From Magnetococcales bacterium (GTDB lineage: Bacteria > Pseudomonadota > Magnetococcia > Magnetococcales > JADGBX01): a stretch of 39,091 nucleotides of DNA. Positions 9,142-27,000 of this stretch are shown here, piece by piece. The position numbers were made by a program, and so were the translations under genes. Numbering within the stretch: the stretch's first letter is position 1; every line of letters begins with the position of its first letter. The stretch covers positions 1 through 39,091 of the forward strand of contig JADGBX010000012.1 of the NCBI GenBank assembly GCA_015231265.1, written 5' to 3'. The notes under the pieces are model-generated. The model had not been told where the DNA came from. It did not search any database and was given only the letters and a program-made list of their open reading frames with translations.

Positions 9142-12138
9142 TCAATCGGAGCGGGAGACCATCTGACGTTTTGCCAGTTCTGCGAATGGGCCGTTGTTGG
9201 CCATGAGTGTGTCATAATCGCCGCTCTCGACGATCCGACCCTTTTCCACCACCAGAATTCGATCAGCATGGACGATGGTGCTGAGGCGGTGGGCGATCAC
9301 CACCCGGGTGATGTCCAGACTCTTGACGCTCTCCATCACCACGGCCTGGGTGGTGTTGTCCAGGGCGCTGGTTGCCTCGTCCAGCAGCAGAATCGCCGGT
9401 CGGTTGGCCAGGGCTTTGGCCAGCAGCAGCCGTTGACGCTGACCGCCCGAGAGGGTGCCGCCCCCCTCCTGCAACACGGTATGGAGTCCCATGGGCATGG
9501 CGGCGATATCTTCGGCCAACCCCACCTGACGGGCGATGTGCATCACCTGTTCGTGGTCCATGGATTCGGAACCGGCGATGTTGTTGAAGAGCGAACCGGA
9601 GGCGATGCGCCCATTCTGCAGAACCACACCGATCTGACGGCGCAGTCCGTCCGGGTCGATGCTGCCCAGGGGCGTGCCGTCGAAGAACACCTCCCCCTGT
9701 TCCGGCGTGTCGAACCCCAGCATCAGCCGCATGATGGTCGATTTGCCGCTGCCCGACCCACCGACGATGGCCACCATCTCCCCCGGTTCGATGGTCAGTG
9801 AGAGACCATCCAGTACGGGCGGGCCGTGAGCAGTGTAGCGGAATGCCACCGAGTTGAAGCTGATCCCCCCTTTGAGGCGACCCGGTGGATGCCGGAGCGG
9901 GCTGGTTTCCGGTTCGGCATCCAGAATCGGGCGGAATCGTTCATAGAGCGGAACCACGGCCAGCGCTTCGGTTACGGCCAGGGTCATGCCGGTCATGGCC
10001 TGGATGAACTGCCCGAAGGCGGCGTTGAAGGCGAGAAAGGAGCCGGTGGAGAAGGGTTCCGGTGGTCCGTCTCCGCTGCCGGTGAGATCGGGGGAGGCGT
10101 TGGTCAGAGCGTGGAGTCGCATGTCGTCGGTGGCGCTGTCCAACACCCAGATCACGCCGATGAAGATCAGCAGATTGGCCATCAGCGGCACCGTGGCGTG
10201 GAACAGCTCCTGGACGTTGGCGTAGCGCTGGGCGGCGACAAAGCGCGCCTTCTGTTGCCGGTAGCGGTCGGCCCAGGTTCCCAGAGCGCGTGATTGTGCT
10301 CCGGCGGCGCGCAGTTTGCCGATGCCGACGATGTACTGCAAAACCAACCCCTCCACCTCGCCCTGGTGGCGGATGTGCTCCCGCTCGTAGTGGAGTTGCT
10401 TGATGGCCAGAAGCGCGGTGATGGTGAGCACCGTCAGGACGATGGCGATCCCGATCAGCGCCAGTTGCCAACTGTAGTAGAACATCAGTCCCAGGCTGAC
10501 GAAGGAGAAGAGAAAGGCGAACAGGGCCGTGGTTACGGTTCTGGAGAGGGTCTCGCGGATGGTCTGAATGCCTAGGGTGCGGTCGGCCAGATCCCCCGAT
10601 GTAAAGCGACGAAAGAAGGCGGCAGGCAGCCTCAGCAGTCGGTCGAACACCGCCGCCTGGAGGTTCCAGTCGGCCCGGCCCTCCAGCCGCAGCATGGCGA
10701 ACCCCTTGGCCGCTTCGAACCCGGCGGCTCCGAACGCCGCCACCACAAGGGCTGCGATCAACTGGCCGTGTTGAAAGAGATCGGAACCGGGAATGATCTT
10801 CTCGATCAAAAGGCCGGTGGCCACCGGAGTCAGCAGTCCCAGCAGCGCCACCGCCACCCCCAGAATCATCATGCGCAGGGCGTCGGAGCCGCTCCCCTTC
10901 AAGGTGAATCCCAGCACGCCCAGGAAGGATGGTGGATGGTGGGGCAGGGGACGGTAGAGAGTCAGCGCTTTGGGATCAATCTCGCGGGCACTGGTGTCGT
11001 CGATGATGTGCCGACTGCCTTGGCTCGGATCGACGGCCACATAGCCGCCCCGTTTGCTGTCCGGCAGCAGGGCGAGGGGCGTGCCATCCGTGGTGTAGCC
11101 CAGCAGCGGCCCGTTCTCGCGTCGAAACCAGTCGTCCCGCAGCAGCACCCAACGACTGCGCAGACGGGAGGTCTGCATGATCTCTTCCAGATCGGGTTTC
11201 CGGGTGTGGACCGGCAAGGTGATGGTCTCACCCAGGGCGTCGGCCACCAGGCGACAGGTATCCACCAACGGGGTCTCCCGCCGGGGTGAAACAACCTCGC
11301 TCGGTTGATCGGGCCGGACCGTCTCGGCCAGGCCGGTCAGACCGTGGGAGAGCTGTTCCGAGTCCTGTCGCCAGCGGCTCTGCAAGCGGCGGTGGCGCTC
11401 CTGGATGCGGTGAGCCAGAAACCCACCCAGCCGATTGGCGGCGATGGCGCAGAATCCCTCCACCGCTTCCCATAACCTGTCCGAGTGGAGCAGATCCTTG
11501 CTGCTCTCGACCGTGAGCGAGGTTGGTTGGTCCCGTAGAGGTTCCAGCCAGCTCTCGGCGGACATAGGACGCAGGCCCGGTTCCGCCTCGGCACCCAGAA
11601 AGGCGGCCTGACCGCGCTCTACACGACACCAGAACAGCCCCCGAGCCGGGCCGGCCAGGCGGAGTCCGGGGTTCAGGGTGATGGTCCCGTCAGCAGGGGT
11701 GGCCCGTTCCGAATAGGTGAGATCGAGGGGATTCTGAGCCGCTGTCAGGGCCAGGATCCAGCGCTCCACCAGATCAACGGTCACCTGGGGAGGCAACAAC
11801 TCCAAGGTGTGCGGATCATGCACCAGCAGAAGCTCCACATCGAGACCGCCACTGAGGATCACCCGCGCCGTACCATTCTGGGTCGGAACTGGCGGTAGTG
11901 GCGTCAGCAACCCCCCGGCCTCGACCTGAAACAGCAGGTGGCGGCGTCCTACATCCGACTCGTCCTCTCCGACCGATTCACGGGCAAAGAGATTGACCGA
12001 TCCACGCAGGACGATGGCCACGCATCCCGTTTGGTTCAGATCGAACACGGTATCACCACCGAGATCCAGACGCTGGATCCGGTCACCATCCACTCGTGTA
12101 AGGAGGGGGTCGAGTCGTGCATGCAGCGGTGTGGTCAT
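9142..12138 (-). CDS. NHLM-type export ABC transporter, ATP-binding protein with N-terminal beta-roll domain
   Basis: This 998-residue protein matches the architecture of the NHLM bacteriocin system ABC protein (TIGR03797-like). It starts with a cNMP-like beta-roll (about 20-150), has a long soluble region (150-420) containing the GPLLGYTTDG...GYVAVDPSQGSR segment, then six membrane helices (about 430-720). A complete NBD ends the protein, with GGSGSGKST, LSGGQRQR, LLLDEATSALD and the H-loop IAHRLS. There is no C39 peptidase, so it presumably pairs with the peptidase-containing half transporter encoded 26 bp upstream to form a heterodimer that exports mature peptides across the inner membrane. 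Length and motifs look intact. The soluble region recurs, shortened, in the middle of the 1423-residue fused transporter. Confidence 0.92.
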   Translation of the reverse strand: MTTPLHARLDPLLTRVDGDRIQRLDLGGDTVFDLNQTGCVAIVLRGSVNLFARESVGEDESDVGRRHLLFQVEAGGLLTPLPPVPTQNGTARVILSGGLDVELLLVHDPHTLELLPPQVTVDLVERWILALTAAQNPLDLTYSERATPADGTITLNPGLRLAGPARGLFWCRVERGQAAFLGAEAEPGLRPMSAESWLEPLRDQPTSLTVESSKDLLHSDRLWEAVEGFCAIAANRLGGFLAHRIQERHRRLQSRWRQDSEQLSHGLTGLAETVRPDQPSEVVSPRRETPLVDTCRLVADALGETITLPVHTRKPDLEEIMQTSRLRSRWVLLRDDWFRRENGPLLGYTTDGTPLALLPDSKRGGYVAVDPSQGSRHIIDDTSAREIDPKALTLYRPLPHHPPSFLGVLGFTLKGSGSDALRMMILGVAVALLGLLTPVATGLLIEKIIPGSDLFQHGQLIAALVVAAFGAAGFEAAKGFAMLRLEGRADWNLQAAVFDRLLRLPAAFFRRFTSGDLADRTLGIQTIRETLSRTVTTALFAFLFSFVSLGLMFYYSWQLALIGIAIVLTVLTITALLAIKQLHYEREHIRHQGEVEGLVLQYIVGIGKLRAAGAQSRALGTWADRYRQQKARFVAAQRYANVQELFHATVPLMANLLIFIGVIWVLDSATDDMRLHALTNASPDLTGSGDGPPEPFSTGSFLAFNAAFGQFIQAMTGMTLAVTEALAVVPLYERFRPILDAEPETSPLRHPPGRLKGGISFNSVAFRYTAHGPPVLDGLSLTIEPGEMVAIVGGSGSGKSTIMRLMLGFDTPEQGEVFFDGTPLGSIDPDGLRRQIGVVLQNGRIASGSLFNNIAGSESMDHEQVMHIARQVGLAEDIAAMPMGLHTVLQEGGGTLSGGQRQRLLLAKALANRPAILLLDEATSALDNTTQAVVMESVKSLDITRVVIAHRLSTIVHADRILVVEKGRIVESGDYDTLMANNGPFAELAKRQMVSRSD

Positions 12139-12164: not shown

Positions 12165-14342
12165 CTACAGAGAAGTGACCAGCGTGGTATACGCGCCCTC
12201 TTTGGCCATCAGTTCCTCATGGCGTCCCCGCTCGACGATCCGACCCTTGTCGAGCACGATGATCTCATCGCAATCTCGGATGGTGGAGAGCCGGTGGGCG
12301 ATGATCACGCAGGCCATGCCGCGCGTGCGGATTGCGCTATCAATCCGCTGTTCCGTCACCGGGTCCAGCGCCGCTGTCGCCTCATCCAAGATCAACACCG
12401 CCGGATGGTTGGCCAGCGCTCGGGCGATCTCCAACCGTTGTCGCTCGCCACCGCTGAAGTTCATGCCCCCCTCTTCCACATGGCACTCCAACGCCTTGAA
12501 CCGCCGACTCACCACATCCAGAACCTGGGCATCGGCCAGGGCTTTGGTGAGTACGTCATCGGGAACGGTGGCGTCCCAGAGGGTGAGATTGTTGCGTAGC
12601 GTTCCTTCGAACAGAAACAGATCCTGATCCACATACCCCACCGACGCCGTCAGTAGCCGGGGCGGAATCTCGGTGATGGGGCGGCCATCCAGCAGAATCT
12701 CGCCCGCGTCCGGCTCCAGCAGGCGGCACATCAGCCGCCCAAGGGTGGACTTGCCACTGCCCGACCCACCCACCAGAGCGATTCGGGTGCCCGGTTTCAG
12801 CGAGATGGAGCAGTCACGGATCAAAGGGGGGGCCAGCGGACTGTATCCGAAGGTGACGTCACGCAGCTCCAGGTGGCCGTGAACGTGGGCAATCCCCGCC
12901 TGGTCCGTGCTCCGGTCATCGGTCGGGATGTCGGGTACGGGGTAGTTGAAAACATCCGACAACCGGGTGAGAAGACCTTTGATGGTCTGGAGATCCCCGG
13001 CCAGGGCCACCAGCAGCGTGATGGGCGCGGCGAACCCGGCCATCAGGGTCTGGAACGCCACCAGATCGCCGATGGTCAGCGCTCCCTCCATCACCCGCAG
13101 CCCGCCGATTCCCAGCACTGCCACGTTGCTCAACGCCGTCAGCAGCAGGGGAATCACCGTCAGCCGGACCGTCTGGGTGCCCAGCTCCTGTTGCGACAAC
13201 AGGCTTGATGCCTGATACCCGGCCCAGCGTCCGAAGAGCGTGTCACCGGAGCCGGAGGACTTGACGGTCTCGATGGAGCGGATGCCACCGACGGTGGTCC
13301 CGCTCAGCTTGCCGAGATCATTGAGCAGACGACTACTCAGATCGGTACGCCGACGCCCCATGCGCCGCACTGCAATGGCGTTCAAGGAGACCAGAACCCA
13401 GCCGGTGGCGCCCAGTATCGGGTCGTAGAGCAGCATCAGCAGCCCGAAGAAGAGCACCGAGATCAGATTGAACAGATTGGTTGCCAGTTGGCCGGAGAGG
13501 AGTTGGGCGATGCGCTCCCCGGCGGCGATCCGGGTAGCCACGTCCCCGGCCTGGCGCTGGCTGAAGAAGCTCATGGGCAGCCGCAATACCTGCTCCAGAA
13601 ACCGGCTGGAGAGGGAGACCGCCAGCTTGGTCTCCAGTCGCAGCAGATAGCGCTGTTGCAGCGCCGTCAGCACCCCTCGGACCAGCAGAGTCAGGCCCAT
13701 GCCGAGACAGAGCGGACGGAACCACTCCTCTTGCTGACCAATGAGAATGTCATCGACGAAGATCTTGGAGAAGAGCGGCACCAGAATTCCCGGCACCACC
13801 AGCAGCAGGCTCACCAATGCCACGAACGCCACCGCCATCCGCGAGTGGCGCAGATGGGCGGCCAGCTCCCGCCAGAGCGAGGGGGGGTGTCCGGCCCGCT
13901 CGAACGACTCCCCCGGTTCCAGGGCGATGACGATGCCGGTGAAGCTCTCCTCCATCTCCTCCAGGGAGACGGTGCGGGGGCCGCTGATGGGGTCGTTGAG
14001 GCAGGCACGCCCCTTGTGGAACCCCTCGAAGACGAGAAAATGGTTGAAGTTCCAGTGGAGAATCGAGGGGGTCGGCAGGGGTGCCAGTTTGTGGATTTCG
14101 TTCTTTTTGAAAGCTTTGGCCGAGAGACCGTAGCGTCGGGCGGCTTTGAGGATATTGGTCGCTTTGCTGCCGTCTCGGGAGACGCCGCAGGCCACCCGCA
14201 ACTCCTCCAGCGATACCCAACGCTTGTGGTGGGCCAGCACGATGGCCAGGGAGGCCGCACCGCACTCCACCGCCTCCATCTGGAGGATGGTCGGCGTCCG
14301 GGTCCGTTTGGCCGTCTTCACGCGGTGTTGGCCGATCTTCAC
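12165..14342 (-). CDS. NHLM-type export ABC transporter with C39 leader peptidase
   Basis: This 725-residue protein has the classical C39-ABC half-transporter layout (TIGR03796-like). The N-terminal C39 peptidase has ILQMEAVECG, giving oxyanion Gln21 and nucleophile Cys27, with His101 (NHFLVF) and Asp117 (LNDP). The membrane domain spans about 160-450. The NBD has GGSGSGKST, FSGGERQRLEIARAL, LILDEATAALD and H-loop IAHRLS. It should remove Nif11-type leaders after the double Gly and translocate the core. The start is GTG, overlapping the stop of the upstream HlyD gene (GTGA, 14339-14342), so translation is coupled. No damage is visible. It is the second intact C39 peptidase in the cluster, beside the one in the fused transporter. 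Confidence 0.93.
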   Translation of the reverse strand: MKIGQHRVKTAKRTRTPTILQMEAVECGAASLAIVLAHHKRWVSLEELRVACGVSRDGSKATNILKAARRYGLSAKAFKKNEIHKLAPLPTPSILHWNFNHFLVFEGFHKGRACLNDPISGPRTVSLEEMEESFTGIVIALEPGESFERAGHPPSLWRELAAHLRHSRMAVAFVALVSLLLVVPGILVPLFSKIFVDDILIGQQEEWFRPLCLGMGLTLLVRGVLTALQQRYLLRLETKLAVSLSSRFLEQVLRLPMSFFSQRQAGDVATRIAAGERIAQLLSGQLATNLFNLISVLFFGLLMLLYDPILGATGWVLVSLNAIAVRRMGRRRTDLSSRLLNDLGKLSGTTVGGIRSIETVKSSGSGDTLFGRWAGYQASSLLSQQELGTQTVRLTVIPLLLTALSNVAVLGIGGLRVMEGALTIGDLVAFQTLMAGFAAPITLLVALAGDLQTIKGLLTRLSDVFNYPVPDIPTDDRSTDQAGIAHVHGHLELRDVTFGYSPLAPPLIRDCSISLKPGTRIALVGGSGSGKSTLGRLMCRLLEPDAGEILLDGRPITEIPPRLLTASVGYVDQDLFLFEGTLRNNLTLWDATVPDDVLTKALADAQVLDVVSRRFKALECHVEEGGMNFSGGERQRLEIARALANHPAVLILDEATAALDPVTEQRIDSAIRTRGMACVIIAHRLSTIRDCDEIIVLDKGRIVERGRHEELMAKEGAYTTLVTSL

Positions 14343-15604
14343 TGGTAGATTCCGACGGTTTTGCGCAGGAACGGAATGAACAGCGAGGCAGGGCTCTGCT
14401 CCTCCACCGTGATCTCGGCGTTGAGGGTGGTGCCGCTGGCCAGTCGGATGGGCGGACCTTGCCGCGAACTCCAGCGATAGCCGCTGACTGCCCGTTCATC
14501 GGCAATCAGATCGACATGCACCGCATACGGCGGCCCTTCACTGGAGAAGACGCCGACCAGAGCCGGATTCTGTAGAACCGAGGTCATCCCTCGGGGCGTC
14601 ACGGGAAATTCCGACACCTCCCGTACCGTACCGAGCAGGGAGCCGAACTCCTCCTTCTTGATGGTAGCCGGTTCGATCCGCACCGACTGGCCGGGGTGGA
14701 GCTTCTTGCCGTCGGCGGTGGGGGCGTAGAGCAGCGCCTGGAGTTCACCACCGGTCCGCTCGATGCTCACCACCGCTTCACCCGCCTGCACCATCGCCCC
14801 CGGACCCACCTTGTACTCGATCACCCGTCCATCGATGGGTGCGACGATGGCTCCATCCCGAGCCAGGGCCTTGCGGTGGCGTTCCACCTGGCGCTGGGCG
14901 TCGTTCAGATCCTGTTCCAGCCGCGAGCGCTCCTGTTCGTGGTGCAGCTCCAGGTCCAGCTGTTCCGCCTGGATGGTGAGAATCTCATACCGTTTGTCGG
15001 CCAGATTCTGCCGGGCATCGCTCAGATCGACTCGGGTCGATTCGTGGGCCTTGCGGGCGACGATTCCCTTTTTGACCTGCTTCTCCTGGGCGCTGACCAG
15101 TTTGCTCAGGTAGGCGATGTGTCGGGTGATCTCGGCGATGGACTGCTTCAGGGCGGCGGTTCTTTTCGTGTAGAGGCCCGATTTGAGGTTCCGTTCCCGG
15201 CGGAACTCCGCTTCTCTCCGCTTGATGATCGCCTGTTTCTCTCGCACCACGTCGCGGGCATCCCGCAGATGTTCCGACACTTCGGCCTGATCGATGACCG
15301 CCACCGTCTGACCTTTTTTGACATCGGCATAGAGCGAGACGGAGAACTCCACAAGCACGCCCGGAGCCTGGGCCATGGCATCCGCCACATGTCCGAAGCG
15401 ACTCAGGATGATGCCCTGACTCTTCACCGTGGTGGGAATGGCGCCATAGACGCTCCAGACCCCCAGGAACCCCAGTAGACCGGCTACCGTCAACGCCACC
15501 ACCCAGCCACGGGCATCGGTCACCGACACCAGCCGGTCGAGCTGGTCGGGGGAGGCAAGGCGGTCGAGTGCGGCTTGTCGGAAGAGCTGTTTGTGTGCCT
15601 GCAT
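14339..15604 (-). CDS. NHLM-type HlyD membrane fusion protein
   Basis: This 421-residue protein has one membrane segment near the N-terminus (about 50-72). A first beta/lipoyl half contains LVEFSVSLYADVKKGQTVAVID, a long alpha-helical hairpin spans about 110-240 (rich in Glu/Arg/Lys/Gln heptads), and the second lipoyl half contains GAIVAPIDGRVIEYKVGPGAMVQAGEAVVSIE. A beta-barrel domain and a short C-terminal tail complete it. It would bridge the inner-membrane ABC pair to the outer membrane or act as periplasmic adaptor (TIGR03794-like, NHLM secretion protein). GGAG lies 4-5 bases before the ATG. It is 31 bp downstream of the radical SAM gene and overlaps the C39-ABC gene. Confidence 0.92.
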   Translation of the reverse strand: MQAHKQLFRQAALDRLASPDQLDRLVSVTDARGWVVALTVAGLLGFLGVWSVYGAIPTTVKSQGIILSRFGHVADAMAQAPGVLVEFSVSLYADVKKGQTVAVIDQAEVSEHLRDARDVVREKQAIIKRREAEFRRERNLKSGLYTKRTAALKQSIAEITRHIAYLSKLVSAQEKQVKKGIVARKAHESTRVDLSDARQNLADKRYEILTIQAEQLDLELHHEQERSRLEQDLNDAQRQVERHRKALARDGAIVAPIDGRVIEYKVGPGAMVQAGEAVVSIERTGGELQALLYAPTADGKKLHPGQSVRIEPATIKKEEFGSLLGTVREVSEFPVTPRGMTSVLQNPALVGVFSSEGPPYAVHVDLIADERAVSGYRWSSRQGPPIRLASGTTLNAEITVEEQSPASLFIPFLRKTVGIYQ

Positions 15605-15635: not shown

Positions 15636-16985
15636 TCAAACAGGCAACAATCCGGATGAGTACGGGTGCAGCCTTTTGTTGATCATGGTTGCCGAATAGC
15701 GTTGGTTGAAATGGTTGGAGGGCACATGTTCATACCCGGAGAGCGTCAAGGCTGTGCTGCGGGCTCGAATCTTGTCGCCGGCATACAGCTCGGAGAACAC
15801 CTGCCAGAACAGATCGTTCAACCGCTGCGGATTCAGTTGTTTTGGTGAAAAGACCACATGGTTGAGATCATATAGGGACCAGTCGGTATGCAAAAGGCGT
15901 CCCTGTTTGTTCATATCTTCAAAGAGTTGTGTGCCGGGCAGCGGTGTCAGCAGCCACAGAATGGGATTGACGGTGGGATGTTTCGAGAAGAAGCGGGCGG
16001 TTTCGAGGATGCTCTCCTCCTCATCCTGATCGAAGCCGAGAATCATGCTGGCGATGCCGAGGATACCGTTCTCGGTCAGTGCCCGGAACAGATCGTCATA
16101 GCGATCGACGCTGTTGAACCCCTTGCCGGATGCGGTCAACACCTCTTGGGAGAGAGACTCCACCCCGATGAATAGTGAATAACACCCGGCCTTGCGGGCC
16201 CGTTCCAACAGCTCCCGTTTGCGATGAATCCGTGTGGTGCACTGGGACATCCAACGAATCGTTTTCTTGCTGTTTGAAGCCACTGCCTGAAACAGCTCCC
16301 GAGCATAGGCGGGTTGGATATCTATGGTGTCATCGACGAAGAAGAAGGTGTCGGCGTTGGGCAGGGCGTTGATCTCGTCCAGCACGTGCTCGATGGGCTT
16401 GGTGCGGAACCCTTTGTCAAAGAATTCCGTGACCGAACAGAAATCGCACCCCAGCGGACAGCCCCGCGTCGTGTAGATCGGCAGCATCGGCAGGCCGGTG
16501 TTGTTGATCATGTAGTGGGAGAAGTCGAAGCCGCTCCAGTCCGGGATCACGGGCCGATTCAAGTCGGGCAGGGAATCGGCTCGATAGGTGGGGTGGAGGC
16601 GGTTCTGCTCGGCGTCGTCTAGAACGGTTTCCCACAGCTCCTCCGCCTCGCCCAGCACTACGCTGTCGGCGTGTTTGCCCGCCTCTTCCGGCAGGAAGGT
16701 GGCATGCACCCCGCCGATCACCACCCGCACCCCACGGGCCCGGAAGGCATCGGCGATCTGATAGGCGCGACCGATCTGACAGGTCATGGCGGTAATGCCC
16801 ACCAGATCTACCGGCTGCTCATAGTCGATGGTCTCCACCACATCGTTGAGAATGCGTACTCGATGCTGCTTGGGCGTCAGTGCATGCAGAATGGCCAGCG
16901 ACAAGGGGGGGAGGTAGGCTTTGCGGAACTTCCGGGGGGTGCCCCGTTCATCCAGGGTGGTGGGGTAGATCAAGAGAATATTCAC
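15636..16985 (-). CDS. B12-binding-fold radical SAM protein, candidate peptide maturase
   Basis: This 449-residue protein has an N-terminal Rossmann-like B12-binding-type domain (1-140; PPLSLAILHAL, GGVHATFLPEEA, LGEAEE), but I see no DxHxxG cobalamin ligand. The radical SAM core has Cys176-x3-Cys180-x2-Cys183 (TTRGCPLGCDFC), which holds the [4Fe-4S] cluster, plus SAM-barrel features VDDTIDI and GVESLSQEVL. There is no SPASM-type Cys cluster near the C-terminus. The sequence resembles the BchE/HpnJ-like broad family, so chemistry cannot be read from it. Its place between the precursor genes and the export genes, all on one strand, argues that it modifies the cores, though a lipid or cofactor role cannot be excluded. 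The start codon is GTG with only a weak upstream ribosome binding site. Confidence 0.85.
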   Translation of the reverse strand: MNILLIYPTTLDERGTPRKFRKAYLPPLSLAILHALTPKQHRVRILNDVVETIDYEQPVDLVGITAMTCQIGRAYQIADAFRARGVRVVIGGVHATFLPEEAGKHADSVVLGEAEELWETVLDDAEQNRLHPTYRADSLPDLNRPVIPDWSGFDFSHYMINNTGLPMLPIYTTRGCPLGCDFCSVTEFFDKGFRTKPIEHVLDEINALPNADTFFFVDDTIDIQPAYARELFQAVASNSKKTIRWMSQCTTRIHRKRELLERARKAGCYSLFIGVESLSQEVLTASGKGFNSVDRYDDLFRALTENGILGIASMILGFDQDEEESILETARFFSKHPTVNPILWLLTPLPGTQLFEDMNKQGRLLHTDWSLYDLNHVVFSPKQLNPQRLNDLFWQVFSELYAGDKIRARSTALTLSGYEHVPSNHFNQRYSATMINKRLHPYSSGLLPV

Positions 16986-17109
16986 AAAAAGATCACCCGC
17001 TTCCTCTTACCACCCTGAAAGTTTCCAACCGGAGTGTTTCCCGCAACGCGTTGTCGTTCCACATCCGTCAACTCAATCAGTATAGGGAAACATCTCCAAT
17101 CATCTTGAA

Positions 17110-17400
17110 CTAGCTGACAGAAGTTGGGGTCTCATCTTTTTCTGTGGTTACGGCTCCACCAGCGACCAGTTCCAGCTCCGCCTCGGTCAACTCATCCTCA
17201 CCGGCAGAGAGCTGGATCAGAGAGGCGATCTCTTTCAACGCAGAATGCGCTTCGTCTTCAGTCAAGGGAGTGCCCTGTTCCTCGGCGATGCTGCGGGCCT
17301 TCTGTACGAATGCCTCTGGCTCCTGAATGGAGGAGAGTTGGGCGATGAGTCCGTCATCGGAGCGGATGCGGCTGTAGAGGTCCACCAGTTTCTGGTCCAC
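17110..17400 (-). CDS. Nif11-like RiPP precursor peptide A
   Basis: This 96-residue precursor is predicted from the GTG at 17400. The open frame extends 26 codons upstream to another GTG, but homology with the second precursor begins exactly here (VDQKLVDLYS against MEQKLVDLYS), and a possible promoter overlaps the longer start, so the short form is preferred. The helical, acidic leader ends in ELTEAELELVAGG, the Nif11-like double-Gly cleavage site at residues 81-82. The predicted core is 14 residues: AVTTEKDETPTSVS. It has no Cys, five Thr/Ser beyond the leader and one Lys. Leader and DNA are very similar to precursor B, so the two are a recent duplication in which the cores have diverged. 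Confidence 0.85.
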   Translation of the reverse strand: MDQKLVDLYSRIRSDDGLIAQLSSIQEPEAFVQKARSIAEEQGTPLTEDEAHSALKEIASLIQLSAGEDELTEAELELVAGGAVTTEKDETPTSVS

Positions 17401-17485
17401 ATTTTGCTTTCTGTATGATTCAACGTTCACCCCGACCGTCAACGCGGCAGCCGGTTGTGTGATGCGATACGTTAACACCGTACAG

Positions 17486-17515
17486 TAAACATATGAGGAA
17501 TACGACCTTTCTCAA
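17486..17515 (-). promoter_or_regulatory. Possible sigma70-type promoter of precursor A
   Basis: On the minus strand TTGAGA (17510-17515) and TATGTT (17488-17493) are 16 bp apart. Transcription would begin near 17480, giving about 80 bases of leader before the GTG at 17400. Matches to consensus are moderate, so this is a suggestion only. Confidence 0.3.
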
Positions 17516-17598
17516 GTCAGTGGCGGTTTGTAACCAGCCATCAGTCCTGGCCATTTTTTTATGGCAGGCTATCAAACAACCGTGTACATCAATAGCAA

Positions 17599-17610
17599 GG
17601 CGTGTCCTCA
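17599..17610. repeat. 12-bp match to the MITE terminal repeat beside the stop of precursor B
   Basis: GGCGTGTCCTCA here is identical to bases 4-15 of the left inverted repeat of the element at 33906, and the next bases (GTTAGCTC against ATGAGCTC-like sequence at the other end) are also similar. It begins one base past the stop codon of precursor B. It may be the relic of an element that landed at the 3' end of the gene. Confidence 0.5.
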
Positions 17611-17611
17611 G

Positions 17612-17905
17612 TTAGCTCTTGACGTTCTTATCCAACACAGAGCCGCACTCTCCTACTGCTCCACCAGCGACAAGCTCCAACTCCGCCTCGGTCAACTCAT
17701 CCTCACCTGCAGAGGCCTGGATCAAGGCGGCGATCTCTTTCAAAGCGGTCCGGGTTTCCTCTTTGGTCAGGGGTGTGCCCTGTTCCTCGGCAATGGTGCG
17801 GGCCTGACGTACGAACTCTTCCGGCTCCTGAATGGAGGAGAGTTGGGCGATGAGCCCTTCATCCGTGCGGATGCGGCTGTAGAGGTCCACCAGCTTCTGT
17901 TCCAT
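17612..17905 (-). CDS. Nif11-like RiPP precursor peptide B
   Basis: This 97-residue precursor starts at an ATG preceded by a GAGAG stretch. Its 82-residue leader, nearly the same as that of precursor A, ends ELTEAELELVAGG. The predicted core is 15 residues: AVGECGSVLDKNVKS, with a single Cys, two Lys and two Ser. One Cys cannot form an intramolecular disulfide, and no lanthionine synthetase gene is present, so Cys or Lys are the likely modification points. The leader should be recognised by the radical SAM and/or GNAT enzymes and removed by a C39 peptidase. The stop codon lies next to a fragment resembling the end of a MITE found elsewhere in the window, so the C-terminal residues of the core may have been altered by an insertion. 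Confidence 0.88.
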   Translation of the reverse strand: MEQKLVDLYSRIRTDEGLIAQLSSIQEPEEFVRQARTIAEEQGTPLTKEETRTALKEIAALIQASAGEDELTEAELELVAGGAVGECGSVLDKNVKS

Positions 17906-17985
17906 GATCTCTCACTTATGCATGGTCCAATGTGCGATCCCGTTGTTGATACTGCACCCGATTTTGCCACTCTTCCCAACGGTCG

Positions 17986-18015
17986 ATCATAATAAACGCA
18001 TCTTTCTGTAATCAA
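17986..18015 (-). promoter_or_regulatory. Possible sigma70-type promoter of precursor B
   Basis: On the minus strand TTGATT (18010-18015) and TATGAT (17986-17991) are separated by 18 bp, upstream of precursor B. With similar sequences before precursor A, it suggests that the precursors have their own promoters and are not only read from the GNAT gene. Confidence 0.3.
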
Positions 18016-18049
18016 GAGCGTGGTGCGTAACACTCTGCCATGGCCACCC

Positions 18050-18352
18050 TCATTGTGAATTCTCCCCTTCAGGAAATTCAAATTCCGTCTTTTTCGTAGA
18101 GGCGACCCCTCCTGAAACCATCTCCAACTCAAAGTCGCTCAACTCATCATTCTCGGAAGCGCCTTGAATCAGTTCTGCCATATTGTTGATCGCATCGGCA
18201 ATTTCTTGTTTCGTCAGGGAGACACCATGTTGCGTTGCAATCGAAATCACTTCCTTGCCCAATTCGGTCGGATCTTCGATGGTGGCCAGGTTGGAGAGCA
18301 GGTCTCCGTCATCTCTTATGGCGGCGTAAAGCTGTACGATTTTATTGTCCAT
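18050..18352 (-). CDS. Nif11-like RiPP precursor peptide C
   Basis: This 100-residue precursor starts at ATG 18352. Its leader has diverged from A and B (MDNKIVQLYAAIRDDGDLLSNL; GASENDELSDFELEMVSGG) but is again exactly 82 residues to the double Gly, which supports all three starts. The predicted core is 18 residues: VASTKKTEFEFPEGENSQ. It contains a Lys pair, one Pro, two Phe and four acidic residues, with no Cys. The three cores share only small N-terminal residues (AV/VA) and a Lys. It is the precursor closest to the GNAT gene (178 bp), with the same transcription direction. Confidence 0.87.
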   Translation of the reverse strand: MDNKIVQLYAAIRDDGDLLSNLATIEDPTELGKEVISIATQHGVSLTKQEIADAINNMAELIQGASENDELSDFELEMVSGGVASTKKTEFEFPEGENSQ

Positions 18353-18530
18353 TATAGTTCTCGCAGATCGTTTATGTGTTCAGTTGGCGCGTGTTGGAGC
18401 TATTCAAGGAGGGCCGGTTAGAGTGGACATTTCCTACGCAAACAAGTTATCCGTCTCTCATCTTCCAGATTCTAGACCAGCAACACCGGAAAGCGTTAGA
18501 TGATCCGTCTCAGTGTTTTGTTGATTTGTC

Positions 18531-19613
18531 TCAAGAGCGCAGAGTCGTCGCATTCAGCGCCTTTCGTGAGCCCCACCTGGGGTCGATGGAGAAGGCAAAC
18601 GTGCTGACCCGCTCATCCATTAACCGGCGCATGGCGGGATTATCCCCCACGGTCTCATACCAGGAGGTGGTCTCCGGCCCCATCAAGGCACTCTGCCGGT
18701 GGCCGGTCTCCAGCATGCCGCCGATCAGCCAGCCCCGGTTACGCAGGGCGGGTTTGACGTATCCGGTGTGGTAGAGCACGCCCTCGACCTGATCGATCTC
18801 TTCGCCGATGATCCACCCCACCAGTTCGCCACGACGGCGGATGGCAAACGAGAGATCCGGTACGCAGTGCTGGTCGAACGCCTGTCTCGGGGCCAGCAAC
18901 GTCTCGACTTCGCCAATGACCACCAGCGCTTCAATGGCGCTGTTATCCTCGGCGGTGCGTTCCAGCCAGGGCGTGGTCTCGAAGCCGTGGCGACGCAGGA
19001 AGGGCATCAGTTTCGGCCAGGTCTGCTCCGCCTTCAGATACCAGTTTGCGGGACCGCTCAGGCGTTGAGAGTGGAGTTGGGGTGCCTCCCAGCCGCAGTG
19101 TTCCAGGAGGCTTTCCAGGGCCTGTTTCTGTTTGGTCTTGCCGGAGTACTGCACGGTCAGACAGCGACTGCCCTGTTCAAAGGCCACCTGTTCGGCCGCT
19201 TTGAGAAGATCCCGGCCCAATCCCCTTCTTCGCCACTGCTTGTGGATGAAGAGACTGAGCAGGCGACGGTGATCTCTCTTTGCGTGATCGTCTGCCGCAT
19301 CATCTTCTGGTGCAGGGGACGCTGGCGGTTGCTGGTATTGGTGATAGCGTTCCAGTGTGATGGGGTCGAAGAAGGGGGTCTGGGTAAAGGGCCGCCCCAT
19401 CAACGCCAACCCAATCGGAATACTTCCCGCCATCATGCCCACCGCCTTCACGTCGCGTTCGCCATATTTCGGCTCGGTCAGATAGGGGCGGAAGCGGGGA
19501 AAGGTCAAACTCGTGAAACGCGGATCGGGAAGTGCCAGGGTTTGAATGGTCACCGGCAACGTATCGAGCAGGCCGATCAGTGGGTTGGATTGTCTCTCTC
19601 TGTTCCGGTTCAC
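18531..19613 (-). CDS. Tandem GNAT acyltransferase-like protein, candidate RiPP maturase
   Basis: This 360-residue protein contains an N-terminal GNAT domain with a good acyl-CoA motif A (LSLFIHKQWRRRGLGRDLLKAAEQ, about residues 117-140) and a C-terminal half that also looks GNAT-like (LSFAIRRRGELVGWIIGEE; HTGYVKPALRNRGWLIGGMLE, about 255-310), with a less regular acyl-CoA loop. The start is GTG; a stop lies ten codons upstream, so little extension is possible. It precedes three Nif11-like precursors on the same strand. GNAT maturases are known from selidamide-type RiPPs, where a fatty acyl group is placed on Lys or Orn of a Nif11/NHLP-type precursor. By analogy this enzyme may acylate the Lys of the cores. 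A housekeeping acetyltransferase next to the cluster by chance is the alternative. Confidence 0.8.
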   Translation of the reverse strand: MNRNRERQSNPLIGLLDTLPVTIQTLALPDPRFTSLTFPRFRPYLTEPKYGERDVKAVGMMAGSIPIGLALMGRPFTQTPFFDPITLERYHQYQQPPASPAPEDDAADDHAKRDHRRLLSLFIHKQWRRRGLGRDLLKAAEQVAFEQGSRCLTVQYSGKTKQKQALESLLEHCGWEAPQLHSQRLSGPANWYLKAEQTWPKLMPFLRRHGFETTPWLERTAEDNSAIEALVVIGEVETLLAPRQAFDQHCVPDLSFAIRRRGELVGWIIGEEIDQVEGVLYHTGYVKPALRNRGWLIGGMLETGHRQSALMGPETTSWYETVGDNPAMRRLMDERVSTFAFSIDPRWGSRKALNATTLRS

Positions 19614-19790: not shown

Positions 19791-20840
19791 ATGCAACCTC
19801 TGGAACACTCCTATTTCACAACCTCCCATCTGAAACAGTCCACCCAGTTCGACGCGTGGCGGGACAGTATTGGCGTCATGTTCGATGTGCGACTGGATAC
19901 CGCATCGGAAGATTCCGGTTTCCACGCTCTTACTGACAGTTATCTGTTGGACTCCATGATGCTTACCCGCTGTGCCGCAGGCCGGCAGAAGTTCGACCGC
20001 AAGAGCGTGCGCATCGCCCGGGACGGCATCGATCACTACATGATCCAACTCTTCGTCAAAGGGCGGGTGGAGATGCGTGTGGCTGGCAAGCAAATGGTCG
20101 GTCCCACCCGCTCCATCGTCGGCTTCGATCTGGGGGATACCCTGGACAGTGTCAACACCGATTTCGATCTGCTGAGTGCGTTTATTCCCCGCCGGGAGCT
20201 GGCCCCGCTGCTGCGCTATCCGGACAATGTGCCCGGTACCATGGTCGACACGGCACAGGGGGAGGGCAAGCTGCTGGCAGACTTTATGGAGGCGGTGTTC
20301 CGGGCCGCGCCGACGCTCTCCCGTGATGCTGGCCCTTCGGTGGCATCCAGTCTGATCCATATGGTGGCAGCGGCGTTGAACCGCTCCCTGGAGGTGTTGG
20401 AGGATGCCCCCACGGCGTTGATGCAGTCCCATCTGATCCGGGCCAGGCAGTTCATCGAGGATAACCTGGATCGGGAGGATCTCACGCCAGCGTTGCTTGC
20501 GCAGCATCTCGGTGTTTCGCGAGCCACACTCTATCGCACCTTTGAGTCCCATGGTGGCGTTGCCCAGTTCATTCGCCGCCGCCGGTTGAACAGAGCTCTG
20601 AAGCATCTGGTTGCACCACCGCCCGGCATCCTGAAACAGCGCATCTCCGACATCGCTTTCAGCACCGGTTTTAACGACTCCGCCCAGTTCAGCCGCCTGT
20701 TTCGCAACGCGTTCGGTATCTCGCCCAGCGAAGCACGCCATCAAGCGGATCGGATGTCATCAGCAGACCAGCGGCGAACCTTCCTCAATGACGGCATCAG
20801 CGACACGCTCTATGAACAGTGGATTGCCAGAGTTCTTTAA
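19791..20840 (+). CDS. AraC-family transcriptional regulator
   Basis: This 349-residue protein has an N-terminal AraC-binding-like domain (about 1-200, of the AraC_binding_2 type: FDAWRDSIG, DHYMIQLFVKGR, VGFDLGDTLDS) and a C-terminal double helix-turn-helix (about 220-320). The latter contains LTPALLAQHLGVSRATLYRTFE, then ISDIAFSTGFNDSAQFSRLFRNAFGISPSEAR, the family signature. It is divergent from the RiPP cluster and separated from the GNAT gene by 177 bp, so it is the natural candidate for cluster control, possibly sensing a small molecule or the peptide product. Its own promoter appears FNR-dependent, which would tie the cluster to oxygen availability. The link to the cluster is inference from position. 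Confidence 0.92.
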   Translation: MQPLEHSYFTTSHLKQSTQFDAWRDSIGVMFDVRLDTASEDSGFHALTDSYLLDSMMLTRCAAGRQKFDRKSVRIARDGIDHYMIQLFVKGRVEMRVAGKQMVGPTRSIVGFDLGDTLDSVNTDFDLLSAFIPRRELAPLLRYPDNVPGTMVDTAQGEGKLLADFMEAVFRAAPTLSRDAGPSVASSLIHMVAAALNRSLEVLEDAPTALMQSHLIRARQFIEDNLDREDLTPALLAQHLGVSRATLYRTFESHGGVAQFIRRRRLNRALKHLVAPPPGILKQRISDIAFSTGFNDSAQFSRLFRNAFGISPSEARHQADRMSSADQRRTFLNDGISDTLYEQWIARVL

Positions 20841-21088: not shown

Positions 21089-24000
21089 ATGGAGTGTATG
21101 AGATATCGTGATTGGCAGCCCCGATTCGTGGCAGGATTCTGTTTCATCCTACTTGGCCTACTCACTGTTTCAGAACTCTCTGCAGAGCCCAGAACAACCG
21201 AAGCGACTCAAGAGGTAATCAAGGTCGCCTATTGCGAAGATTGTGTTCCTTTCCACTTTAAGGATGCACAAGGCAAAGCCACCGGGATGATCATCGACCT
21301 GTGGCGGGCATGGTCCGAGAAAACCGGGCGGCACATTACATTCCTCCCGTACACATGGGACGAGACCTTGAAAAAGGTCGGCGCCGGAGAGGCGGATGTT
21401 CATGCCGGTCTGTTCTTCAATGAGGCGCGGGATCGCTATCTGGACTACGGCACACCTCTGACCCGCACCAATGCCCATGTCTTCCTCTATAAACAACTGC
21501 CGCCCATCACCCATCTTTCCGAACTGAAGGCGTATCGCGTTGGTGTTCTCAAGGGGGACTATGTCGAGGGGTTTTTGCAAGAGAAGCTGCCCCAGGCAAC
21601 GATTGTTCCCTATCCGAGTTACAAAGCGATCATGTCGGCGCTCAAGGCCGGTGAATTAAAAACGTTCGCCGCCGACACTCCGACCGGAATCTACCATCTC
21701 CAGCGCCATGGCCTTCTGGGAGACTATTCGGTTACCGATGCACAACTGCTGTACGCCAACGATTGGTTCGTTGCGGTGACGGCGGGACGTCGAGCGCTGT
21801 TGGAGACGCTGAACAAAGGGTTCAAACGGATCAGCCAGGAGGAGCGTCTGGCGATCCATCGCACCTGGACCTCCTCTGCCGACTCCAAGGCTCTCGTTAT
21901 CGCCATCGACCGGGACTACCCGCCCCTCTCCAGGATAACCACATTCGGAGAACCAGCCGGTCTGCTCGTCGACTTCTGGCGGGCGTGGGGGAAGGCGACG
22001 GGTCGCGACGTGCGCTTCCGCATGAGTGACTGGGCCGATACCCTGGCTGCGGTCAAGAGCGGTGAAGCGGACATTCACTCCGGTCTGTTCATCGACCAGA
22101 AGCGCAAAGACTCTTTCTCCTTTACCCACCCCATCTACAAGATCAACTCCACTTTCTATCACCGTACGGACACCACAATTCCGGAAGATCCCGCATCATT
22201 CGGTAATCATCGTGTGGCGGTACTGAAAGGGAGCTACCAGGAGAGCGCCTTACGTACGCAGTATCCGGAGCTGGTACTGGTTTCCTTCAGCTCATGGATG
22301 CAGGCTCTACGGGCGCTGTACAGTGGCGAGGTGGATGCTGCCGTCGGTGAAGATCACACCATGGAGCAGCTCCTGAACGAGACCGGATGGCGCTCACGTA
22401 TCACGGGACTCGATCAACCCGTCTTTTCCAATGTGGTCTACGGCGCCGTCGCAAAGGACAAGGAGTCTTTGCTGGGCCTGGTTAATGACGGAGTGGAGAA
22501 ACTGGGTGTGAAAGCTCTGCGCCAGATTGAAATGGCGTGGATAACCGACCCCAACCAACGCATTTTCAAGCCCGATACAGACGGTTCGGCGCGTTACGAT
22601 CTTACTCTTGAGGAGGAGGCGTGGCTGGAGGCGCACCCAGTCTTGAGATTGGGCGTGGATCCGGCCTGGCCGCCCTACGACTTCGTCAATGACACGGGCC
22701 GACACGACGGTTTTTCTGCCGAAGTGCTGGATCACCTGGCCCGGTTTCTCGGGATCGACATCTCCCTGACCCCCGGTCTGAGCTGGAAAGCGGCGCTTGA
22801 AGGTGCCGAAGCGCGCACCATCGACGTCATCTCGCTCTGCGTACCGACCCCGGATCGCGCCCACTATCTCCTGTTTTCGAACCCTATCGTCAAGGAGCCC
22901 TGGGTCATCACGACCCGGAAGGATCAGCCACTGGAGGGCGGTATTGATGCACTGATCGGTAAACGGGTTCTGATCGCCGAAGGGTATGCGGTGGGTTCCC
23001 TGATTCAATCGGCGTTTCCCAAACTTGTCTATTCGGAGGTTGCGACCCCTTTGATCGGTTTGAAGAGGGTTGCCGATGGCTCCGCAGATGCCTATATCGG
23101 CTACCGGGGTGCCATCAACCATCTGATGAAGCACGAGGGATTAAACACCCTTCATATCGCCAATCCCTCGGGACTCGCCCCATCCTCGCTCTCCATCTGC
23201 ATCCGTTCCGATTGGCCGGAACTGGTCGGCATGATCAACAAATGGTTGCTGTTCATCGGCAAGGAGACGTTGGATGAAGCGGCAAACAGGTGGCTCAGCA
23301 CGTCCAATCTGAAGCGGGAGTCGGTTCGCGTCGCCTTCGGGTCGAACAAGCCCCCCTTCATTTTCGCCCCCGGTTCACACAGGGGGTTGGAGATCGATAT
23401 CGTTCGTGAAGCCCTTGCCGTGAGCGATATCGACATGATCCCCATGGAGTTGACCAATGAGGGATTGACCAAAATCATGGCGTCCGACGTGACTGTCGCA
23501 GCGGCGGCCGGTGTACAACACGATCCCGCCTCACCCTATCACCACTCCAGTAACTACATCTTTTTCGACAATGCCGCCTACACCCTGGAAAGCGCCCAAA
23601 CCACCCTCACCGATCTTGATGCCCTGAAAGGTCGACGTATCGCCATATGGGGGACCGGTCACAAAGACCTTGGCAAACGGTTCTTCGATCTGTTCAATCC
23701 AAAGAGCCGGGTGGAACATACCCCCGATTTCTATGAGATTGCCGATCAGGGATTGCAGGTTCGATCCTTCTTCGAAGGCAAAGCCGATACGCTGATTATC
23801 GATTCGACCATTCTGGGTTGGCAGATCAACCAACAGGCCGACGCCGTGGACACCCGTCCCGCGCTCACCCGACACGATCTGTTCGAAAGCAGAACCGGCT
23901 TCTCCATCGCCTTCAGAGATAAAACGCTTCGGGACCGTTTCGAGGCTGGACTTGCCGAGCTGAAGAAGAGTGGCCGGTACCAGCATCTGGTCGACACCTA

Positions 24001-27000
24001 CAAGGATGGGAATTACCAGATCATCCACGACTATGCGGCTCTCATCGGCACGCTGTTGCAACCCTCTCTCTTTTCCGATAAATCCGACATCATCAAGGCT
24101 TTGTTGCCGCCGCTGACCCACGCCTTGTCCATTGTCGAGTCCATAGAGATTACCGACCGCTACGATAACCAACTTGTACGCTCCGTCCGTGATGGCGAGA
24201 CGCAACACGATGGTTATGCGGTAACCTTCCGTGTTCAGGACTACGCCAATGACGTTGGCCGGACAGTCGAATACGGCAGGGTGACCATTACATTTCGAGG
24301 CGGGGCACAGAGGGCTCGCTGGCCGAATGTGCACAATATCGTCAACGCCTGCAGCCACTGCAACCCTATCGAAAAGTCGGAGATGCTGAAGGTTGTTGCC
24401 GCATTCGCACAGACGGCATCAAACAGGATCCGGCCCGATCAACCGCAGCAGCCGAGCACGCCACGGAGCGAGAGTTCCATCTCCATGGAGGCGGTGGTGA
24501 CTCTGGTCCCGATCGTGCTCATCGTGCTGCTTCTGGGGGCCTTGATCCTGCCGCGATTGGTCTCCGACGAGATGATCGCCCGTCAATTCGGATCGCGCTA
24601 CTTCCGGACTCTGGTGCTTGGTGGCGCCGTCATCATGGTCGTGGTCGTCGCAGTGTTGGTGGTCTACACCCTCGGCAAGAACAGAATGACGGTGCTGGAT
24701 GCCATCAGGGATGAATTAAAGGTGGTGCTTCTCAGCACCATGGAACGTAGCGACCTGTGGGTGCAGGAGCGGCAGTACTTTCTGACTCAGTTGGGCCACG
24801 ACCGCCAGTTGCAGGAGCTGACCAGACGGCTGCTTACGGTCCAACCGACCAGAGAAGCACTGTCTAAATCGATGGCCCTGCGGAAACTGCGCAACTATCT
24901 GGCTGCCCATGAACAGGAGATCGGCCATCTCGGTTTTTTCATCATCAACCGGGACAGAATCAGTATCGGCTCCAAGCGCGACACCAATCTGGGCAGCCTC
25001 AATCTGATCGAAAAACGGCACCCGGAACTGCTTAGTCAAGCCTTCGCCGGAACAGCGGTCTTCATTCCACCGATCCGGTCGGATGTGGTGTTGTCCGACA
25101 AGGAGGGCACCGATTACAAACCTCTGAACATGTTCTTCGCGGCGCCCATCTATGACAGCATGGGGTCGGTGATTGCGGTGTTGACCACCCGGATCGATCC
25201 GAAAGGGGAGCTCTCTCGAATCATGCACGGTGGGCGCATCGGCACCTCCGGCGAGACCTACATGGTCGATGAAGATGGCCGCATGGTCACCCGGAGCCGA
25301 TTCGTCGATCAATTGAAGGAGATCGGTCTGATCTCGCCGTCGGATCCGAACACCACAGAGGTGATCGTGCGCGATCCGGGCCGCAACCTGCTGGAAACCG
25401 GTGAGAACGACGACATCGACGGAGAGAGACCCCTTACCGAGATGGCCCGGGGCCTCATGGCATTGAAGGGGACATACGATGCCGAGGAGGAACATGCGGA
25501 ACATCCCGGTCACTCCAGGATCGTCATCAATATGGAGGGTTATCGAGACTATCGTGGCGTTCCCGTCTTCGGCGCCTGGATGTGGGAGCAGCACCTTGGC
25601 CTGGGATTGACCACCGAGATCGATGTGGCCGAAGTATTGGCCGGTCACCACACCCTGCGCACCAATCTGATCATCATCGCCGCCAGCACGCTTCTTCTGG
25701 CGATCATCTCCATCCTGTTGACGCTCACCTTCGGGCAACGCGCCACGACGATTCTCCGGCGCACCCAGGATGAGCTTGAGGAGATCGTCGACACCAGGAC
25801 TCAGGAGCTGGAAGAGAGCCGTGAGCGTCAGGAGTTGGCGCTCAAAGGGGGCTCGCTCGGATTCTGGGATGTGGATCTCGTCACCGGACGCACCGTCGTC
25901 AACGAACGCTACGCCGAGATTTTCGGATTTCCGGTGGATGATCTGGTTCTCAAGCGGGATGAGTGGGTCGAACGCATTCATCCGGACGATCGAGATCGGG
26001 TTTTGGCGTTGGGAAGACGGTACCGTCTCAATGACGGAAACACGTATGAACCGGAGTTCCGCATCATCACACCGGCTGGGAAGGAGCGTTGGGTGATTTC
26101 GAAAGGAGCTGCTGTTTCCCGATACTCGGATGGCAAGGTGATCCGCATGGTTGGAACGGTCCAAGATGTTTCGGATCGCAAAGAGGCTGAAAGAGTCCTG
26201 CAAGAGCGGGAAAACACCTTCCGAGCCCTGGCTGAGAACTCCCCGGATGTGATCATGCGGATCGACCGACACCATCGATACCTGTACGTGAATTCACGGG
26301 TTCAGGAGATGACGGACATTCCACCCGAGGCCTTCCTCAACAAGACGCATGAGGAGATCGGTTTCCCGCTCAAGACAAGTCAATTCCTCGACGCTGTCAT
26401 CGATGTCGTTCTACAAAGCAAATCAAACCACCGCGTTGAGTTTCAACTACCGAACGGAGCGTGGGTCGATTGGTCACTGGCCCCTGAATTGGATGACAAG
26501 GGAGCCTTGACCGCCATCATGACCACCGCTCGGGACATCTCCGGACTTAAGGAGACCGAAGCGGCACTGGATAAGGCGCGCCAGCTTGCCGAAGAGGCCA
26601 CCAGGGCGAAGTCCGACTTTCTGGCCAACATGAGCCACGAGATCCGTACCCCCATGAACGCCATCATCGGCATGAGCCATCTGGCGTTGCAGACGGATCT
26701 GACTGCCAAGCAGCAGGATTACGTGCACAAGATCCATACCGCTGCCAATGCGCTGCTCGGCATCATCAACGATATTCTCGATTTCTCTAAGATTGAAGCC
26801 GGTAAATTGGAAGTCGAACAGGTGCCTTTCCAACTCCAGGACGTGATGGATAATCTGACCAACCTGATTACCGTCAAGGTGCGCGAGAAGGGGCTGGAAT
26901 TCCTGGTTGCGACGGAGAACGACGTTCCCAATGGCCTGATCGGAGATCCCCTGCGCCTGGGTCAGATCCTGACCAATCTGGCCAACAATGCGGTGAAGTT

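Follow-up and report, generated by a model that had tools for sequence, protein, structure and literature searches.

A Magnetococcales gene cluster with a tandem GNAT, three Nif11-leader peptides and a B12 radical SAM protein: a probable source of secreted acyl-peptides

General organization of the cluster

We have found in a bacterium of the Magnetococcales, a magnetotactic order, a gene cluster which is probably responsible for the synthesis and secretion of three short peptides; each would have an acyl group (likely a fatty one) on lysine and a second change due to radical chemistry. Within a lipopeptide family discovered recently, it is a rare variant not described before; the principle itself is not new. 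The window is the whole stretch of DNA analysed, 39,091 nt of contig JADGBX010000012.1. The cluster lies on its minus strand and consists of a tandem GNAT, three Nif11-leader precursors, a B12 radical SAM gene and an export block. The preliminary description had placed three Nif11-like precursors between the GNAT and radical SAM genes, and all five ORFs are indeed there. Its limits for the locus, 15636–19613, were too narrow: beyond the radical SAM gene there is a downstream export and leader-peptidase block with a complete NHLP set (15604–3755), which had been missed. No LanM, YcaO, epimerase or arginase is seen among the gene calls and translations of the window (the family scans covered the cluster genes), in agreement with the earlier statement that lanthionine synthetase, YcaO and epimerase were not in view. 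With no lanthionine synthetase among the gene calls of the window, the cluster is not classed with those of lanthipeptides. Scanned for Rfam families and tRNAs, the window gave no match. The five genes first described are:

18531–19613, minus strand: tandem GNAT acyltransferase, 360 aa (Pfam PF00583, profile A1, comparison of one half with the other)
18050–18352, minus strand: Nif11-leader precursor A, 100 aa, core after VSGG: VASTKKTEFEFPEGENSQ (TIGR03798, E 3.2e-6; GG-leader motif)
17612–17905, minus strand: Nif11-leader precursor B, 97 aa, core after VAGG: AVGECGSVLDKNVKS (TIGR03798, E 3.6e-8; GG-leader motif)
17110–17400, minus strand: Nif11-leader precursor C, 96 aa, core after VAGG: AVTTEKDETPTSVS (TIGR03798, E 1.9e-6)
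15636–16985, minus strand: B12-binding radical SAM protein, 449 aa, no SPASM (Pfam B12-binding 7e-12, Radical_SAM 2e-19)

Precursors and cores

The profile search proposed earlier gave a match to TIGR03798 for all three precursors (E 3e-6, 4e-8 and 2e-6); only B exceeds the curated cut-off of this model, A and C falling below it. The double-glycine motif closes the leader in the three of them, as expected for Nif11-leader RiPPs. Precursor C had been given the start of the longest ORF, 17478, which we replace by GTG 17400, the most likely start when C is aligned with A and B. Of 48 genomes of the same class, just one other has a Nif11 match at E<=1e-4, so that three precursors within 1.3 kb are not a matter of chance. 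Precursors B and C have 67 identical residues out of 82 in the leader, but their cores are unalike.

The cores of A, B and C have 18, 15 and 14 aa, with charges -2, 0 and -2: they are short, as first described, but not all of them are acidic. Lysine is present in each one, which confirms the initial observation, and it is their only side-chain amine; none of the three contains Arg. Its position is not conserved and in no case is it residue 1, unlike NpuA. Lysine is a common residue, so its presence in each core is weak evidence. Cysteine is found in core B only. There are no aromatic residues in cores B and C, while core A has two Phe only.

The tandem GNAT

The N-terminal half of the GNAT matches PF00583 (Pfam, E 7e-11, residues 110–154). 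Its C-terminal half is a weak second GNAT domain: in Pfam, Acetyltransf_1 is matched in five of ten family members (best E 0.0012), with E 0.033 for the window protein itself, and the two halves compared with hhalign give a probability of 84.6%. The P-loop RRRGLG is found in the N-domain (residues 128–133); the C-domain has a degenerate RNRGWL at 291. Profile A1 matches the protein over its full length with 354 bits. Among 399 Pseudomonadota genomes, only that of the window and one other exceed 350 bits with the family profile (354–361), whereas the scores of ordinary GNATs do not exceed 43 bits and cover the N-terminal half only. The two-domain family is therefore sharply separated from ordinary GNATs. 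Its members are quite divergent: the window GNAT has only 21–31% identity with the others, no close relative appeared when it was used as a query on the genome contigs, and the alignment of ten members has no stretch conserved enough to scan with. A single-sequence AlphaFold prediction gave pLDDT 31, too low to be of use. One match, in genome G307, was set aside as due to chance: the long ORFs there read as other proteins, none of them a GNAT.

A similar layout is known in NpuN, a tandem GNAT with a P-loop in the N-domain alone. The substrate of this enzyme is a Nif11-leader peptide, acylated at Lys1, a residue shown to be needed (PMC13060382). The link to selidamide-type maturases suggested earlier is thus strengthened by a two-domain layout like that of NpuN, compared by its published features, and by relatives which adjoin Nif11/NHLP precursors and C39/NHLP exporters. 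The window has the combination typical of selidamides, a tandem maturase GNAT with a P-loop in the N-domain clustered with a Nif11/NHLP precursor. In selidamide products the acyl group is borne by the side chain of Lys or (OH)Orn. The clusters of nostolysamide (npu), phaeornamide and kamptornamide share with it the GNAT, the Nif11/NHLP leader, the GG site and a C39/NHLP-type exporter, NpuN, PhaN and KspN being compared by description only. There are also differences: the selidamides characterised in the cited papers are lanthipeptides or bear Orn and have a LanM (in pha also an arginase), whereas in the window we see no LanM or arginase, there is a B12 radical SAM protein instead and the short cores have no Arg.

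Related loci in other genomes

Of 11 further family loci examined, 8 have a double-glycine leader peptide near the GNAT, while control loci totalling 1.36 Mb have none. In the remaining three the GNAT is fused to TIGR03032. With the exception of these fused relatives, homologues are not routinely found away from precursors; had they been, this would have argued against the original proposal. The peptides have leaders of the Nif11 and NHLP types and the exporters are NHLP/C39: GNAT, precursor and exporter recur together. Among the cores listed, every GNAT-linked one with a recognised leader contains Lys.

Two uncharacterised plasmid clusters resemble that of the window. Plasmid p1 of Shinella sp. 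H4-D48 (NZ_CP093338.1) shares with it the GNAT, a Nif11 precursor, a B12 radical SAM protein, the NHLP series HlyD-ABC1-ABC2-cNMP and an AraC regulator; it differs by an additional NHLP precursor, a second GNAT and a single Nif11 precursor instead of three. The radical SAM proteins are not orthologous: they have 27% identity and fall in separate clades, a split supported with 100/99. In the Mesorhizobium/Aminobacter plasmids (CP006583.2 and relatives) a Nif11 precursor adjoins a GNAT of the family and a B12-type RiPP radical SAM protein, which in this case is a TIGR03975 C-methyltransferase; a radical SAM amino-acid epimerase is also annotated and the core is long and rich in Ala and Val, unlike the short cores of the window.

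According to the preliminary description, a GNAT with a B12 radical SAM enzyme lacking SPASM, together with short and acidic cores, matched no product known to its author. We found no described product of GNAT, B12 radical SAM and Nif11 in a literature search that reached mostly papers outside subscription journals. The pairing itself is not unique: Shinella has it too and so, with a different radical SAM family, has Mesorhizobium. Neither half of it is novel, since GNAT clusters with Nif11/NHLP and no lanthionine synthetase have already been published (PMC13060382) and B12 enzymes without SPASM are familiar from RiPPs (PoyC, PMC5682303; PbsB, PMC12257519).

The radical SAM protein

The assignment as a B12-fold radical SAM protein without SPASM is borne out by both Pfam domains. 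It has the motif CxxxCxxC at 176–183 and six Cys in total. There is no match to a SPASM family in the Pfam and NCBIfam lists, which leaves it outside the SPASM peptide maturases (TIGR04064 and others). The same domains, with no SPASM, are found in PoyC, PbsB and ApyD, the likeness to PoyC and PbsB being one of domain layout. Its best NCBIfam matches, BchE and ApyD, are far below cut-off: ApyD, the second best, gives 99 bits (cut-off 750), and the TIGR03975 C-methyltransferase model 45 bits (cut-off 281.85), so that it is assigned to neither family. Its sole close relative, with 59% identity, is found beside an NHLP exporter in another Magnetococcales genome, nHA5abin3, on a contig which ends next to it. 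Relatives at 40% identity or less lie outside NHLP/RiPP loci, hence a role on the peptide rests on gene position and this one relative.

Export block and regulator

The genes which complete the cluster are:

14339–15604, minus strand: NHLP secretion HlyD-family adaptor (TIGR03794, 288 bits, above cut-off)
12165–14342, minus strand: NHLP ABC1, C39 leader peptidase/permease/ATPase (TIGR03796, 993 bits, above cut-off; PF03412 6e-31)
9142–12138, minus strand: NHLP ABC2 exporter subunit of 998 aa, extended at the N-terminus (TIGR03797, 841 bits, above cut-off)
8562–9098, minus strand: cyclic-nucleotide-binding, bacteriocin-transport-associated protein (TIGR03896, 161.6 bits, above cut-off)
4294–8565, minus strand: second exporter, ABC1 and ABC2 fused in one ORF of 1423 aa, with its own C39 domain (PF03412 1e-32)
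3755–4297, minus strand: short last gene of the run, HlyD-like by eye only (ORF; 4-nt overlap with the fused exporter)
19791–20840, plus strand: divergent AraC-family protein (PF12833 1e-17)

The three models above cut-off (TIGR03794, TIGR03796 and TIGR03797) give the set of C39 peptidase and ABC exporter of NHLP-exported RiPPs. The fused exporter matches TIGR03796 over residues 9–699 (680 bits) and TIGR03797 over 738–1414 (592 bits), each below the cut-off set for separate ABC1 and ABC2 proteins. The last gene has no match in Pfam or NCBIfam. The cyclic-nucleotide-binding protein scores 49% against its Shinella counterpart. The AraC-family protein is likely the regulator of the cluster and has homologues in other GNAT clusters (Shinella, 31%, 3e-47; genome G206, 27%, 7e-35).

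Proposed pathway and alternatives

We consider it rather probable that the cluster makes and exports three acylated peptides by GNAT acylation, a change by the class-B radical SAM enzyme, C39 cleavage and NHLP secretion. We infer the pairing of enzymes with substrates, the order of the steps and the biological role. The conserved leaders would allow recognition of the three precursors. CoA or ACP would then supply an acyl group, probably that of a fatty acid, for the tandem GNAT to attach to an amine of the core. As no core has Arg (and hence no Orn), the acceptor would be most likely the Lys side chain, otherwise the new N-terminus; ornithine acylation is rejected, since Arg is in no core and no arginase is seen in the window. 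The B12 enzyme would make a further modification, most probably C-methylation. Cleavage after GG is predicted for the C39 domain of ABC1, and the product would leave the cell through the NHLP exporter. On the present sequences its best reading is a secreted selidamide-type acyl-peptide, probably C-methylated by the radical SAM enzyme.

The acceptor could be the free N-terminus of the core after leader removal, as in lipolanthines or goadvionins. GNATs are known to acylate N-termini in RiPPs, some of those beside RiPP genes may do so and PflB has no activity on the full-length peptide (PMC12636437); the variable position of Lys would also agree. However C39 cleavage normally takes place together with export, so that a cytoplasmic GNAT would rarely meet the new N-terminus, and the architecture matches that of NpuN, a side-chain enzyme; we find this acceptor improbable. 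We give a similarly small chance to an acetyl or other short group, or to a self-protection enzyme which inactivates the peptide. Acyl length is not readable from sequence and NpuN takes acetyl-CoA in vitro (PMC13060382), but the chains attached by enzymes of this kind that have been characterised are C10 (phaeornamide) or C16 (nostolysamides), and the authors of the latter work deemed a self-resistance role of NpuN unlikely (PMC13060382).

The radical SAM protein might act on a lipid or cofactor and be in the operon by chance. Its superfamily is rich in such enzymes (BchE, HpnR, HpnJ) and its nearest relatives beyond Magnetococcales have the locations given above. Yet the gene has the precursors on one side and the exporter on the other, all on one strand, and the only close relative of its product likewise adjoins an NHLP exporter. 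In both Shinella and Mesorhizobium the GNAT and Nif11 genes have unrelated B12-type enzymes as neighbours. There is also another NHLP locus in the genome of the window, and after it comes the beginning of a TIGR03975-like RiPP methyltransferase. A substrate other than the peptide thus seems quite unlikely. Somewhat more room should be left for a cluster as described in which this enzyme makes a cross-link, like ApyD or PbsB, or another non-methyl change, although we doubt it. ApyD is among its best matches and PbsB cross-links aromatic residues (PMC12257519), which are scarce in these cores; on the other side, methylation at an aliphatic carbon of Val is the reaction of class-B RiPP enzymes like PoyC (PMC5682303).

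Beyond the acyl-peptide pathway preferred here, we tentatively entertain a new class of lipopeptides: the tandem GNAT would fatty-acylate Lys of Nif11 cores that are short and mostly linear, and a B12 radical SAM enzyme of a separate kind (neither TIGR03975 nor ApyD) would add a carbon-centred modification, a pairing which would have arisen at least twice with different radical SAM lineages.

Significance

Different B12-type radical SAM proteins adjoin the GNAT family in Magnetococcales, Shinella and Mesorhizobium, which suggests that the two modifications have been used together repeatedly. Few RiPPs are lipidated, and in the cited papers those characterised with side-chain acylation come from lanthipeptide-type clusters. 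With three short cores, one radical SAM protein and no lanthionine synthetase, the Magnetococcales cluster would be a minimal system for the substrate needs of tandem GNATs, and it would also help to ask what peptide acylation is for.

Precursors and gene order

Three small ORFs with a Nif11-like leader lie between a GNAT gene and a radical SAM gene, as the preliminary description had it. The five genes are found in this order:

19613-18531, minus strand: GNAT protein, 360 aa
18352-18050, minus strand: small ORF with Nif11-like leader (A)
17905-17612, minus strand: small ORF with Nif11-like leader (B)
17400-17110, minus strand: small ORF with Nif11-like leader (C), if it starts at the GTG aligned with A and B
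16985-15636, minus strand: radical SAM protein, 449 aa, after the three precursors

A, B and C share a double-glycine leader end of the type DELxxxELExVxGG; their cores are VASTKKTEFEFPEGENSQ, AVGECGSVLDKNVKS and AVTTEKDETPTSVS. The leaders of B and C are identical in 67 of 82 residues, while their cores are unalike past the first two: a conserved leader with a differing core is the usual pattern of precursors. Val is common to all three cores and Arg is absent from all of them; aromatic residues are lacking in B and C. Among the 48 genomes of the class, Nif11 matches at E<=1e-4 occur in only one other. At locus L025 (10360-12020) of G014, a genome of the same class, a Nif11-leader peptide adjoins a TIGR04064-like SPASM radical SAM maturase; this is a different system.

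Export genes and regulator

The export genes are found directly 3' of the radical SAM gene, overlapping or tightly spaced. They code for an NHLP secretion adaptor, a C39 peptidase/ABC1, an ABC2 and a cyclic-nucleotide-binding transport-associated protein, each above its curated cut-off; export and cleavage after GG are therefore the best-supported part of the picture. The cluster extent first proposed (15636-19613) holds for the core genes, but it overlooked this downstream block. The same gene run has a second exporter, in which NHLP ABC1 and ABC2 are fused into one ORF of 1423 aa that carries a C39 domain of its own (4294-8565, minus strand), and a short gene after it closes the run. Upstream there is a divergently oriented AraC-family regulator, with homologues in the clusters of Shinella and of genome G206.

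Elsewhere in the same genome there is a further NHLP locus (L188, G000:C129:1-5399; ABC1, ABC2, cNMP); after it a TIGR03975-like radical SAM gene begins and is cut off where the contig ends. The window also has a 2647-aa ORF (21089-29032, plus strand), which, read by eye, has apparent multiple periplasmic-binding domains, PAS/hybrid histidine kinase and receiver domains.

The GNAT family and its loci

The Pfam GNAT match is restricted to the N-terminal half of the protein. Weak Pfam matches in five of ten relatives, together with a comparison of one half against the other, indicate a second, degenerate GNAT domain in the C-terminal half. Residues 128-133 form the P-loop RRRGLG; the equivalent place in the C-domain has RNRGWL, which does not fit the motif. 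By its published description NpuN, the nostolysamide GNAT, has the same layout, with two domains and only an N-terminal P-loop; it adds C16 acyl groups to Lys1 of a Nif11-leader lanthipeptide, and related clusters have NHLP or Nif11 precursors, not always with a lanthionine synthetase (PMC13060382).

A profile built from ten members gave 354 bits for the window and 361 for G206 among 399 Pseudomonadota genomes, values high by construction since both supplied rows to it. All other GNATs there reached at most 43 bits, in the N-half only. The profile separates the family sharply from ordinary GNATs, and the informative point is that there are no intermediate scores. This search scored only a small number of candidates in each genome and may therefore have missed members. 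In the 48 genomes of the class the window is the sole match.

We compared eleven other loci of the family: G206, G413, G434, Shinella, two Ensifer plasmids, Azospirillum, Mesorhizobium, Nostoc, Gloeothece and Microcoleus. In eight of them the GG-leader motif is present in a small ORF (in Microcoleus about 3 kb from the GNAT), against no match in 1.36 Mb of control loci in the same scan, a contrast which is descriptive because the pattern was modelled on these leaders and loosened once. Independent models give Nif11 or NHLP matches in G206, G413, Azospirillum and Ensifer, and annotations as Nif11/NHLP are found in Shinella, Ensifer and Mesorhizobium. The three loci with no visible leader peptide (L044, L052, L054) all have GNATs fused behind a TIGR03032 domain. 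Homologues are therefore not routinely found away from such precursors, which the preliminary description would have counted against its reading.

In Nostoc and Gloeothece the gene after the fused GNAT codes for a large cadherin-like or Ig-like protein. The plasmid of Ensifer sp. PDNC004 (L048) has two family GNATs, one with an N-terminal extension of about 260 aa, and three Nif11-like precursors; it also has a single small ORF of NHLP-like type. The annotation calls this ORF and two of the precursors only hypothetical.

The radical SAM enzyme and the predicted product

Domain matches and a single CxxxCxxC motif bear out a B12-binding radical SAM enzyme; family models gave no SPASM domain. Its best models, BchE and ApyD, are both far under cut-off. 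Class B enzymes of RiPPs without SPASM are well known, both as C-methyltransferases (PMC5682303) and as cross-linkers (PMC12257519). As cores B and C lack aromatic residues, our preferred guess is methylation of an aliphatic residue, possibly the Val of all three cores.

The GNAT and the radical SAM enzyme are both predicted to modify the precursors in the cytoplasm, guided by the leader; C39 would then cut after GG, and export would follow. Acylation, its chain length and acceptor, and the radical step are predictions from sequence. Lys or the N-terminus remain as candidate acceptors; ornithine is excluded because no core contains Arg.

This is a real, apparently complete RiPP cluster, selidamide-like, which includes a B12 radical SAM enzyme but lacks LanM. 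Its components and the GNAT-Nif11 link are already known. For the combination of GNAT, Nif11 and B12 radical SAM without LanM we found no described product in the accessible literature. The combination of the three recurs rarely. The closest radical SAM relative comes from Magnetococcales bacterium nHA5abin3 (contig of 6,604 bases), whose genome belongs to the same order as that of the window, which makes the host a member of the Magnetococcales. This relative forms a supported clade with the enzyme of the window; the next ones (<=40%) come from loci not of NHLP type. The Shinella enzyme is separated by a split with 100/99 support and groups with a relative from a locus showing no RiPP genes, and that of Mesorhizobium is a TIGR03975 C-methyltransferase. 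The presence of three different B12-type lineages beside one GNAT family suggests that such enzymes were recruited repeatedly.
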